Below are positions 10,679 through 17,393 of a DNA stretch of 39,596 bases, piece after piece. Positions within the stretch are counted from its first letter, which is position 1; every line of letters starts with the position of its first letter. Under the pieces are notes generated by a model, which saw only the letters and a program-made list of their open reading frames with translations, ran no database searches and was not told the DNA's origin. The stretch comes from a virus: IMG/VR virus record IMGVR_UViG_3300025671_000170, positions 1 to 39,596 of that record; one strand, written 5' to 3'. The position numbers and the translations under genes are program-made.

Positions 10679-10921
10679 TTACTCCTCTTGTTTGTTTTCT
10701 ATTTTTGCAAACTCTTCTAAAAATTTTTCTATCTTTTTAAAAGTAGTTTTATCTATACTGTCCTGATCTACCCACTCGGTACTCCAAGTGTCGTCTGAGT
10801 GTTGCCACTCTACTGCAATATTCCAAGATTTTATTTTTTTAAGTGCCATAAGCTTTCTTGTTGTGCGAGTGGTTGTTAGCCACTCGCTTTTTTGTTTAGC
10901 CGTTTGCTTGTTGTTTTTCAT
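10679..10921 (-). CDS. Small protein, 80 aa
   Basis: The lysine-rich start (MKNNKQTAKQKSEWLTTTRTTRK) is followed by SWNIAVEWQHSDDTWSTEWV, a Trp-rich beta segment, and an acidic C-terminal helix. It overlaps the 330-residue gene by 26 bases in another frame and belongs to the same transcript. There is no recognisable family. Confidence 0.6.
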   Translation of the reverse strand: MKNNKQTAKQKSEWLTTTRTTRKLMALKKIKSWNIAVEWQHSDDTWSTEWVDQDSIDKTTFKKIEKFLEEFAKIENKQEE

Positions 10922-11888
10922 AAAGCAATCTAGCTTTTATTTTGTCCTCTCTTGTTTGTTTTTTGTTTTTCATTGCTTGAAGTAAAGAAGCCACATTATT
11001 CGGATTGAATACTGTAAGTGCTGAGGAGTTTTCTTTTATCTCTTCAACTTCTTTTAAATCAAGATTTAAAGTTTTAGCCAACTCAAACGCTTCATCAAAG
11101 TATTTATAACTATGAAGAGATTGTTTGATTATTTTCATTTGGTCTAAAATAGTATTTATCCAAATAGCGTGGGTATCAATAACTTTTTGTTTTGCCATTA
11201 ACCATTTTTCTAATACTTCTATTTCTGTATTGTCTGCTTTTAATAATCTACTACTGCAATAATTAGAGCCCAAAACTTCAAGCTCAAAATTTTTAGCGTA
11301 GTTATGAAGAATACAGTTTTCATTTTTTGGGTTAGCAAATCCAAAAAATTTATCGTTAGCATCTACAAATTTTCTTTTGTATGGGCTATCGCTTTCTTGT
11401 TCAATCATAATATCAGGATTACAATTAGGTTGTGCTTTCAGTTCTTCTCTATACATAGCGAAAGCAAAATCGCTTTGATTGTCATAAGAACAACCTGTTG
11501 TTGACCCTCTTAAACCAAAGTCAAAATGTTTGTCTTGTGGTTTTACTACTTTGATTGTTTCGTTTTGATTTGTGTGTGAGTTGTATCTTCTTTCCTCTAC
11601 TTCTGTGGTAAAAGAAAAATTAAAGCACCTATCTTTTCTATAAATGTCTATGTTTTCAAATTTATCAGAAAGATATTTTGCTTTTTCAACATCTTCTTTT
11701 GGATAAACTCTTGAAACAATTTGTCTTGCTGTCTCAAAAGCTGTTTTTTCCATTAAAGGATACTCTTCTCTTGATTTAAAAAAAGCTTCCTTTTCTTGTG
11801 TGTTTTCATTTTCTAAATGATTTTTGAATTGAATAGTTAACCTATTTCTAATCTCAGCATTTAGTCTTATTCGTTTTTGTTTTTGCAT
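10896..11888 (-). CDS. Large protein of unknown function, 330 aa
   Basis: The N-terminal basic helices (KRIRLNAEIRNRLTIQF) precede a beta-rich middle (residues about 85-140, CFNFSFTTEVEERRYN, KHFDFGLRGSTTGC), a Cys-containing section, and a C-terminal helical domain with long coiled-coil potential ending in NPNNVASLLQAMKNKKQTREDKIKARL. I do not recognise the family. Its leader is unusual: a class A operator and then a 10-bp hairpin that buries the whole SD (11894-11921). It is the first gene of a transcript with the 80-, 54- and 122-residue proteins, so this group appears tightly controlled. Confidence 0.75.
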   Translation of the reverse strand: MQKQKRIRLNAEIRNRLTIQFKNHLENENTQEKEAFFKSREEYPLMEKTAFETARQIVSRVYPKEDVEKAKYLSDKFENIDIYRKDRCFNFSFTTEVEERRYNSHTNQNETIKVVKPQDKHFDFGLRGSTTGCSYDNQSDFAFAMYREELKAQPNCNPDIMIEQESDSPYKRKFVDANDKFFGFANPKNENCILHNYAKNFELEVLGSNYCSSRLLKADNTEIEVLEKWLMAKQKVIDTHAIWINTILDQMKIIKQSLHSYKYFDEAFELAKTLNLDLKEVEEIKENSSALTVFNPNNVASLLQAMKNKKQTREDKIKARLLYEKQQANG

Positions 11889-13033: not shown

Positions 13034-13369
13034 ATTGACCTATTTGTATCATACTTTTCCCAATTCCTCATCCTGCTATATACCCCAAAGTAGGAAAAAT
13101 AAAAAAATTTTTACAAATTTAATAGGTTGGATCAAGATTTTTCCTAGTTTTCTGGGAATTTTCCTAGTTTTTTTTCTTAAATTGGGAAGATATTTGCCTT
13201 CATTTTACTTGCTTTTTTGCATTTTTTCCTAGTTTCCTAGTTTTTTCCTTACAAATTTTTTTTTATTTTTTTTTCTCTAAGGAGTGGGATTATAGTAGAT
13301 GATAACTGAACCGTGAGCCGTGGTGCGTGACCCCATACTTTAGAGCAACGAACCACGGTATTCGTTCGG
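13034..13369. repeat. AT-rich gap with four iterons, origin or packaging-site candidate
   Basis: This is 336 bases without a gene. TTTCCTAGTTT occurs four times, near 13140-13150, 13160-13170, 13225-13235 and 13233-13243, the last two overlapping. T-rich tracts surround them (13170-13180 and 13255-13275). At the right end lies a G+C-rich section with CCGTGGT (13317-13323) and ACCACGG (13352-13358), which are complementary, and CGTGAGCC-type motifs. It lies between the winged-helix gene and terS. Origin, pac site or regulator-binding array are all possible. Confidence 0.5.
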
Positions 13370-13729
13370 CTAGGCTTCGACGAACGTATTATTTTTATCT
13401 TCTCTTACAATATGAAGACTATAAGAATACATTTCCCCGTCTCTTCTAACAAAACCTAATCTTACTAATTCCTCTAGGTTCTTTTTAACGGAAGAGTATC
13501 TATCCTTCATACCCATCTCAAAAACAGCTCTAGCGATCTGTTTTACAGTATATTCCCCTAATGGATTTCCATCAGGTAATACGCTATGGATAGCAACTAC
13601 TACAGCTGCGTGTCCGATTGTTAAGTGATGCTTTCTTAACCCCTGCTTTTTAGATATTTCACTAAAAGCCATAAGAAAGTTTAGTATTTCAGTAGCTATT
13701 TCGCTACTTATTTTATTATGAATGATCAT
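13370..13729 (-). CDS. Winged-helix DNA-binding regulator
   Basis: This 119-residue protein has an N-terminal helical part (EIATEILNFLMAFSEISKKQG), then YTVKQIARAVFEMGMKDRYSSVKKNLEELVRLGFVRRDGEMYSYSL (about residues 60-105). This is the helix-turn-helix followed by a beta wing seen in MarR/ArsR-like and phage replication-control proteins. The SD AAAGGAG lies 7 bases before the ATG at 13729. It stands alone between two non-coding regions, one with iterons and one with a structured RNA candidate, which fits a transcription or replication regulator. The target is unknown. Confidence 0.7.
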   Translation of the reverse strand: MIIHNKISSEIATEILNFLMAFSEISKKQGLRKHHLTIGHAAVVVAIHSVLPDGNPLGEYTVKQIARAVFEMGMKDRYSSVKKNLEELVRLGFVRRDGEMYSYSLHIVREDKNNTFVEA

Positions 13730-13739
13730 TTGTCATTCT

Positions 13740-14010
13740 CCTTTTTTTAAAGTTAAATCTATTACGATATGCAATAGACTAGCTAACTTAGTGTAGCCAT
13801 AGGTGGCACTTTATATGCCTAGGCACCGCTCTTAGAGCAAGTGAGGCGTATGTTTTAAGTTATCTAAGAGTGGCACCTAATTGATGCTTTCTATCATCTA
13901 AAGTGTCCTAGTATAGACATACAACTATTAAGTGTAATATAATACTGCATCATTTGTTTTTCATTCCTTTCTACAAACCCAGGTTGCCTCATCCAACCTG
14001 GGTTTTTTAT
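13740..14010 (+). ncRNA. Candidate structured small RNA or leader with terminator
   Basis: This region has no gene but clear structure. Bases 814-820 pair with 844-850 (within 13801-13850), inside which CAC/GTG (824-826/841-843) and GCTC-TTA-GAGC (828-838) pair. CTCTTAGA (13829-13836) can instead pair over 8 bp with TCTAAGAG (13863-13870), so two folds exclude each other. The region ends in a strong intrinsic terminator, 104 bases before the plus-strand gene at 14114. Either a free small RNA or an attenuating leader would fit. Promoter not identified. Confidence 0.4.
13976..14010 (+). terminator. Intrinsic terminator
   Basis: AACCCAGGTTG (13976-13986) and CAACCTGGGTT (13994-14004) form an 11-bp perfect stem with a 7-base loop, followed by a T tract. 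It ends the candidate RNA on the plus strand. Confidence 0.85.
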
Positions 14011-14113: not shown

Positions 14114-14545
14114 ATGAAAATAAAAGCGTACAACGCTAAACTTAAAAACACTCAACACTTCGGTACAGACCGATCGTTGATTAAAAAACTAACTGATAAA
14201 TTTGGGCCCGATGTAAGTATTGGTGATCTATTACATTTTAGATTATCTGACTTTATGAATTCAGGCTTTACCGGTAAACAAACAGAAAGGATAGTTAAAT
14301 ACCTATCCTTCTTTGGCCATAGATTACCTGATTATGCGTATGCTAATAAAAGAAGCAAGCGTACTAATGTAGAGTTAGTTGCATCCACATTCTGTGCTTA
14401 TGATGAGGACAAATTAGATAAGTTCAGAAACGATCCGTTCTATATGGACCCTGAAACAGAATATGAAAATTATGTGTATGATGTTAAGCAGGATCTGGAT
14501 AAGTGGGAAGATAATTCCTTTGACAAGAACGTCAAATTTTGCTAA
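14114..14545 (+). CDS. Protein with RNAP alpha-CTD-like helix-hairpin-helix, 143 aa
   Basis: Residues about 35-71, SIGDLLHFRLSDFMNSGFTG then KQTERIVKYLSFFGHRL, resemble the bacterial RNA polymerase alpha C-terminal domain (SVGDLL..., G.GKK..EEI...L..LG..L), a helix-hairpin-helix fold that binds DNA and activators. The C-terminal half is acidic (YMDPETEYENYVYDV). The start at 14114 has an AGGAG SD 8 bases upstream; the in-frame ATG at 14075 does not. The gene is one of few on the plus strand, follows the structured leader and is closed by its own terminator. The role could be host transcription takeover; this is inference from a short match. Confidence 0.6.
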   Translation: MKIKAYNAKLKNTQHFGTDRSLIKKLTDKFGPDVSIGDLLHFRLSDFMNSGFTGKQTERIVKYLSFFGHRLPDYAYANKRSKRTNVELVASTFCAYDEDKLDKFRNDPFYMDPETEYENYVYDVKQDLDKWEDNSFDKNVKFC

Positions 14546-17358: not shown

Positions 17359-17393
17359 ATTATATAACATCTCTTATTTAGATAAGATTTAAA
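17359..17393. promoter_or_regulatory. Divergent promoter region with class A operator
   Basis: TCTTAT-N4-ATAAGA (17372-17387) lies between two divergent genes. On the minus strand a perfect TATAAT (revcomp 17359-17364) has the palindrome arm at the -35 position. On the plus strand TTTAAA (17388-17393) is a possible -10 for the gene at 17405. One bound regulator could control both directions. Confidence 0.55.

Follow-up and report, generated by a model that had tools for sequence, protein, structure and literature searches.

Genes and promoter-like sites at the locus

The window analysed here is the whole 39,596-nucleotide stretch of IMG/VR virus record IMGVR_UViG_3300025671_000170, which comes from an HTVC023P-type pelagiphage (marine SAR11 phage); its terminase large subunit shares 82% identity with the one of Pelagibacter phage HTVC023P. 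We analysed the gap between two divergent genes, gene A on the left (13370-13729, minus strand) and gene B on the right (14114-14545, plus strand), which is gene-free between 13729 and 14114 with gene B read from its shorter start. Judged from the sequence, the gap holds two unrelated elements on opposite strands: a minus-strand cassette (13358-13911), consisting of a leader with promoter-like sites and of gene A, which shows presence/absence and inversion in relatives, and a plus-strand small-RNA candidate of ~60 nt (13914-14010). The region, for which a first-pass annotation had suggested a riboswitch- or attenuator-like arrangement, is better explained by phage promoters and the hairpins of the transcripts that they would start.

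Three promoter-like sites of the T7 class lie upstream of gene A, all on the minus strand. The alpha site AGGACACTTTAGATGA (13894-13909) is Chosvirus-like and has a predicted transcription start (+1) at ~13898. The beta1 site ATTAGGTGCCACTCTTAGATAAC (13859-13881) resembles the site ACTAAGTGCCACTATTAGATA between the RNA polymerase (RNAP) and single-stranded DNA-binding protein (SSB) genes of HTVC011P, and its position is homologous to that of the beta site following alpha in relatives. The beta2 site ATAAAGTGCCACCTATGGCTA (13794-13814) is of the type found in Fussvirus-like pelagiphages, with one mismatch to the RNAP-SSB site of AP013543 and Gjalp. Position weight matrices (PWMs) for alpha and beta were trained on RNAP-bearing phages only, and their scores were compared with those in 40 order-2 shuffles. 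The alpha site scored 23.7 (shuffle maximum 21.7) and beta2, the top beta site in the window, 20.2 (shuffle maximum 17.8); both thus match the promoter family of RNAP-bearing phages above chance. A higher alpha-like score of 25.0 at window position 10748, due in part to a single training site, was discarded because the match lies inside a coding sequence (DQDSIDK). By sequence resemblance, alpha and beta2 are computed to be T7-class phage promoters and beta1 is promoter-like; the starts expected for beta1 and beta2 lie near 13864 and 13797.

Gene A encodes 119 amino acids and has an RBS-like AAAGGAG just 5′ of it (13727-13744, including the start codon; RBS, ribosome-binding site). Its AlphaFold model (pLDDT 74) aligned with Fur-type winged-helix DNA-binding domains over 88 residues in a second-look structural alignment (Z 11.9, rmsd 2.6), while Foldseek alone gave weak matches (best E 0.011). 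This alignment constitutes the likeness to Fur; unlike Fur, gene A has no Pfam family above cut-off and no metal-binding dimerisation domain in its 119 residues. The model predicts a small winged-helix DNA-binding protein. Gene A and HTVC023P gp20 appear to be distantly related within a single family, whose hidden Markov model (HMM) matches the window, HTVC023P and the contig of relative L018, with no match in HTVC027P, in 023Pt_psg01 or in 11 T7-like genomes; tblastn of gene A against annotated phages returned no match. A relationship to the 'MarR' regulator of T7-like pelagiphages was considered and rejected, there being no homology (hhalign probability 1.5).

Promoter donors and the carrier phage

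Scans of collections with motifs of 15-16 bases mostly give chance matches and were used only where context supported them. Since such scans select on sequence, conservation of the beta core in contigs so found is not independent evidence; independent evidence on this core comes from annotated genomes, small terminase gene (TerS) loci and HTVC023P. A beta-core scan of viral contigs gave matches upstream of SSB (gp2.5-like) genes. The exact beta site stands between the RNAP and SSB genes of the Fussvirus AP013543 and of Gjalp, variants occupy the RNAP-SSB gap in HTVC025P, HTVC041P and HTVC011P, and further intergenic copies are present in HTVC041P (ATTAAGTGCCACTATAGGGAA) and HTVC011P (TCTAAGTGCCACTATTAGATA). 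The beta family is that of the Fussvirus/Stopavirus T7-like (Autographiviridae) pelagiphages. In a second T7-like lineage, alpha sites stand before SSB genes (e.g. in L167, L169, L186, L210, L215 and L244) and before other genes; they are also seen in unselected, intergenic positions in contig G008 and at 17364 and 32412 of the annotated Chosvirus KM23C739 (KT997847). By PWM, the sampled Fussvirus genomes carry beta without alpha, and in Chosvirus the alpha sites are strong and there is a single weak beta-like site. In RNAP-encoding genomes, the promoter family recurs at intergenic sites that include the RNAP-SSB gap. No earlier description of promoter consensuses for both T7-like marine lineages was found in the papers searched, and the motifs supply candidate consensuses for the two. 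In the Fussvirus AP013543 (L152, 34340-34440), the beta site CCACCTATGG is followed just downstream by the SSB RBS CCATAGGAGG, to which it is nearly complementary, so that a promoter-proximal leader could hide this RBS.

The phage that carries the cassette is of a different kind. Genes for the terminase large subunit, portal, DNA polymerase and primase are all encoded in the window, which is therefore not a phage satellite of the P4/PLE type, a class without structural and packaging genes of its own. The RNAP domains PF00940 and PF14700 were found in Fussvirus and alpha-lineage records, that is, in the promoter-donor lineages; neither was detected in the window, in the complete genomes of HTVC023P, HTVC027P and 023Pt_psg01, or in L018's 50-kb contig. 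By this search, the carriers have no cognate RNAP in the same genome and so do not operate in the way of T7-like phages. HTVC023P-type phages do have large proteins of unknown function, among which an unrecognised RNAP reading the sites as the group's own promoters could be sought. We consider this very improbable, given the negative domain searches in three complete genomes and given that self-promoters would be genome-wide, whereas here intergenic sites occur at one locus. Strain HTCC1062 is on record as host both for HTVC023P and for Gjalp, HTVC025P and HTVC011P of the beta lineage.

Recurrence, insertion and folds of the cassette

The composite of alpha followed by beta was found in 15 distinct sequences in 2.70 Mb of loci, compared with none in Markov shuffles. 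All but one of these (14/15) precede a small winged-helix-family gene or gene B, and the remaining one is an apparent chance match. Order and spacing are kept in the 14 distinct HTVC023P-type sequences, in either orientation, and homologs of gene A stand behind the same promoter pair in relatives. When 2.9 million viral contigs were scanned, the composite appeared in 11 stretches, in contigs with HTVC023P-type genes, and nowhere else; the loci of L022, L024 and L026, which also contain it, had been fetched by their TerS gene alone. In HTVC023P (L157, 60.9 kb), the two best alpha and the two best beta sites all fall at 11367-11464, on one strand and directly before gp20. At this position, they form two tandem alpha+beta units, and gp20 is annotated just as a hypothetical protein. 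HTVC027P has no alpha or beta site above shuffles by PWM, and both HTVC027P and 023Pt_psg01 are without payload and without promoters. Several sequences, among them L008, L019, L030, L052 and L080, have no composite at the corresponding locus. In L193 (1676-1840) and L198, the alpha+beta pair directly precedes a gene B homolog and not a winged-helix gene, so the payload can differ. The cassette at the TerS locus of L066 (4192-4540) has one beta site only; its winged-helix-like payload is divergent and shorter, and shares the LHAGH-type motif.

Comparison with close relatives delimits the insert. L003 (IMG/VR 3300005613_000400) is without 13358-13911 and has ~53 bp instead, between flanks that are 91-98% identical, and its terminator and gene B region differ little from those of the window. 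The hairpins and gene A are thus parts of a single insert, and the terminator is a feature of the backbone. L022 (~507 bp) and L019 (44 bp) make up a second presence/absence pair, and L015, L016 and L018 carry a gene A homolog (45% identical) with conserved leader sequences at the same locus in inverted orientation. With these indels and this inversion, the cassette is an autonomous presence/absence unit of the kind expected of an anti-phage moron.

Orientation and payload also bear on whether the sites might act as a decoy, titrating the RNAP of a rival or lending it to neighbouring resident genes, with the payload of minor importance. In the window, transcription from the promoters would indeed run through gene A in the direction of the small terminase gene, but the cassette points away from TerS in L015/L016/L018, in L022-L026 and in HTVC023P, the sites are nearly always followed by a payload gene from a single family, and one to four sites are few for titration. 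We regard such a role as improbable.

Several further sequences were noted at the cassette edges. The ~53 bp in L003 (4371-4424) contain two copies of a CCCAAGCACTyrGGAAAC-like repeat. The TerS-proximal edge in the window (13302-13395) has GC-rich inverted repeats (CCGTGGT..ACCACGG and CGTTCG..CGAACG), with similar GC-rich stretches at the same place in relatives. Beyond it, an AT-rich non-coding stretch with repeated TTTCCTAG / CTAGGAAA units (13085-13280) adjoins the small terminase gene and is a candidate origin or packaging site; stretches of this type also occur in L008, L019, L022, L030, L052, L066 and HTVC023P (11690-11780).

The folds reported by the first-pass annotation were all located where it had placed them. 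On the plus strand, ATATGCCT (13813-13820) pairs with AGGCGTAT (13844-13851) over 8 bp, CTCTTAGA (13829-13836) can alternatively pair with TCTAAGAG (13863-13870), also over 8 bp, and a 12-bp stem with a T-run forms the terminator (13975-14008). The plus-strand fold of the region has z = -3.6 against 200 dinucleotide shuffles; the minus-strand fold is stronger (z = -5.0) and is dominated by 17-nt arms at 13863-13879 and 13820-13836. An Rfam scan of the region gave no family at gathering score, the weak best matches being at chance level; tRNA and tmRNA scans found none there, and blastn of the region against annotated phages gave no match.

These pairings, the terminator and the stability of the region against shuffles are what a plus-strand cis-acting riboswitch or attenuator would draw on, its mutually exclusive folds acting on gene B and on the terminator at 14010. 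However, hairpins and terminator are different evolutionary units, since L003 keeps the terminator without the hairpins, and nothing corresponding to the mutually exclusive folds is seen when the sequences of relatives are folded. The terminator also has its own promoter-like sequence directly 5′ of it (13914-13943, 11/12 consensus matches), so that it need not share one transcript with the hairpins. Adding the better fold of the minus strand and the lack of an Rfam match, we give this explanation scarcely any credence. Two parts of the original proposal stay plausible in altered form: a structured leader before a regulator-like gene, although on the minus strand and on the side of gene A, and a non-coding RNA ending at the terminator, although as a separate element on the strand opposite to the leader.

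The minus-strand leader is predicted to form two hairpins. A 5′ hairpin, GAUG..CAUC (13883-13898), starts at the predicted alpha +1, and a second one (13820-13879), built from the 17-nt arms named above, covers the region of the hairpin noted in the first pass. The leaders of L018, L015 and L115 have similar predicted folds, including the GAUG..CAUC hairpin (leader z = -4.2, -4.5 and -2.3, against -3.5 in the window), and some T7-like phages also have this hairpin sequence behind alpha. The RNAalifold consensus of these four leaders contains no compensatory pairs in the stem. Conservation of the leader structure is therefore modest and rests on the individual folds. We claim a recurrent, predicted leader hairpin in promoter-derived RNA; the leader hairpins probably stabilise or process the mRNA.

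The plus-strand element at 13914-14010 consists of a sigma70-like promoter (TAGACA-18-TATAAT, 13914-13943), a pyrimidine-rich 5′ part of the RNA and the terminator, all of which are conserved in seven aligned sequences, as would be expected of a small-RNA gene with its own promoter and intrinsic terminator. TATAAT and ATTTGTTTT are invariant across the seven, the five sequences most different from the window have TTGAnn 17 nt before TATAAT, and in some of the seven two stem pairs of the T-tailed hairpin show changes on both sides. The element is present in the cassette-less L003. Its 5′ part is antisense to an RBS-like sequence, but the window shows no enrichment of potential target sites, with 8 against an expectation of 7.9. 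The element is a candidate for a separate, conserved small-RNA gene that is independent of the cassette.

Proposed wiring of gene A to rival phages

Promoter identity by sequence, co-localisation of the sites, their recurrence, the lack of a detectable RNAP and the presence/absence of the cassette, all of them computed, point to a removable moron in which T7-class promoters of two rival lineages precede gene A and the payload is wired to rival RNAPs, a reading that we hold with moderate confidence. A T7-like phage that comes into the SAR11 cell of the carrier, or a T7-like prophage induced in that cell, would supply an RNAP that transcribes gene A from the alpha and beta sites, and the hairpins would be stem-loops of the transcripts started at these promoters. 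The gene A protein would then interfere with the rival or adjust the programme of the resident phage. As far as sequence can tell, gene A may switch on only with a rival phage in the same cell. More tentatively, and with slightly less than even confidence, we propose that a lytic phage here carries a swappable alarm cassette in which the tandem promoters act as a panel detector for rival RNAPs and express the payload only in coinfection, giving rival-triggered interference with superinfection.

Several points weigh against the wiring proposed here. The PWM score of beta1 (14.3) is not significant alone. A weak host-type promoter candidate upstream of alpha (13910-13938) could drive gene A. The window is a 39.6-kb fragment, so that the absence of an RNAP leans on its relatives, and the composite is present in only 7 of the 68 usable TerS loci. 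The HTCC1062 host records cover the carrier type and the beta lineage, not the alpha lineage. The wiring is supported by sequence, while rival RNAP use of the sites, and with it activation by rivals, rival sensing, the anti-rival effect of gene A and the function of the hairpins, are what we infer.

The host-type candidate also speaks for a transfer relic, in which the promoters arrived by recombination with T7-like pelagiphages and are functionless, gene A being expressed from the host promoter. Module exchange between HTVC023P-type pelagiphages and other phage families has been reported, and coinfection was put forward as its route (PMC9599517); that genome paper does not mention promoters or RNA polymerase. 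Against a relic, the payload family is absent from the 11 T7-like genomes by HMM, alpha and beta derive from two lineages, yet their order and spacing are retained across 14 distinct sequences, and HTVC023P carries two tandem units. We consider a relic unlikely.

If the proposed wiring is correct, phages that infect the most abundant marine bacteria are equipped with transcriptional tripwires against one another, and the dedicated RNAP of a rival is the cue. This would be a new logic for phage-phage conflict, and the cultured isolates HTVC023P, Gjalp, HTVC025P and HTVC011P share the host HTCC1062. It would also suggest a search rule: where T7-class promoters occur in RNAP-less phages, the gene behind them is a candidate anti-phage effector. 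No precedent for promoters of a rival's RNAP in an RNAP-less phage was found among the results of open-access literature searches.

Three known systems offer partial parallels. In T7, gene 2.5 is preceded by the phi2.5 promoter CACTATTAGGG; the promoter sequence used by SP6 is GTGACACTATAG. The sites described here share with these T7-class Autographiviridae promoters their GTGCCACTATTAG / GACACTWTAGA cores, and RNAP-bearing pelagiphages, like T7 with phi2.5, place such a promoter before the SSB gene. Unlike T7-class promoters, the cassette sites occur in a group without a detectable single-subunit RNAP, at one locus, and as a tandem of the types of two lineages. The late promoters of P4, which respond to Ogr of P2, are similar in that a promoter answers the transcription factor or polymerase of another phage; unlike P4, the carrier here is no satellite but a full phage that encodes its own terminase, portal and DNA polymerase, and the proposed cue is the RNAP of the rival itself. 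Phage morons and superinfection exclusion genes are likewise small, autonomous presence/absence units with a variable payload at a fixed locus. Unlike known morons, which usually have host-type promoters, the cassette has promoters of rival-phage type, through which its payload would exert the anti-rival effect proposed here.
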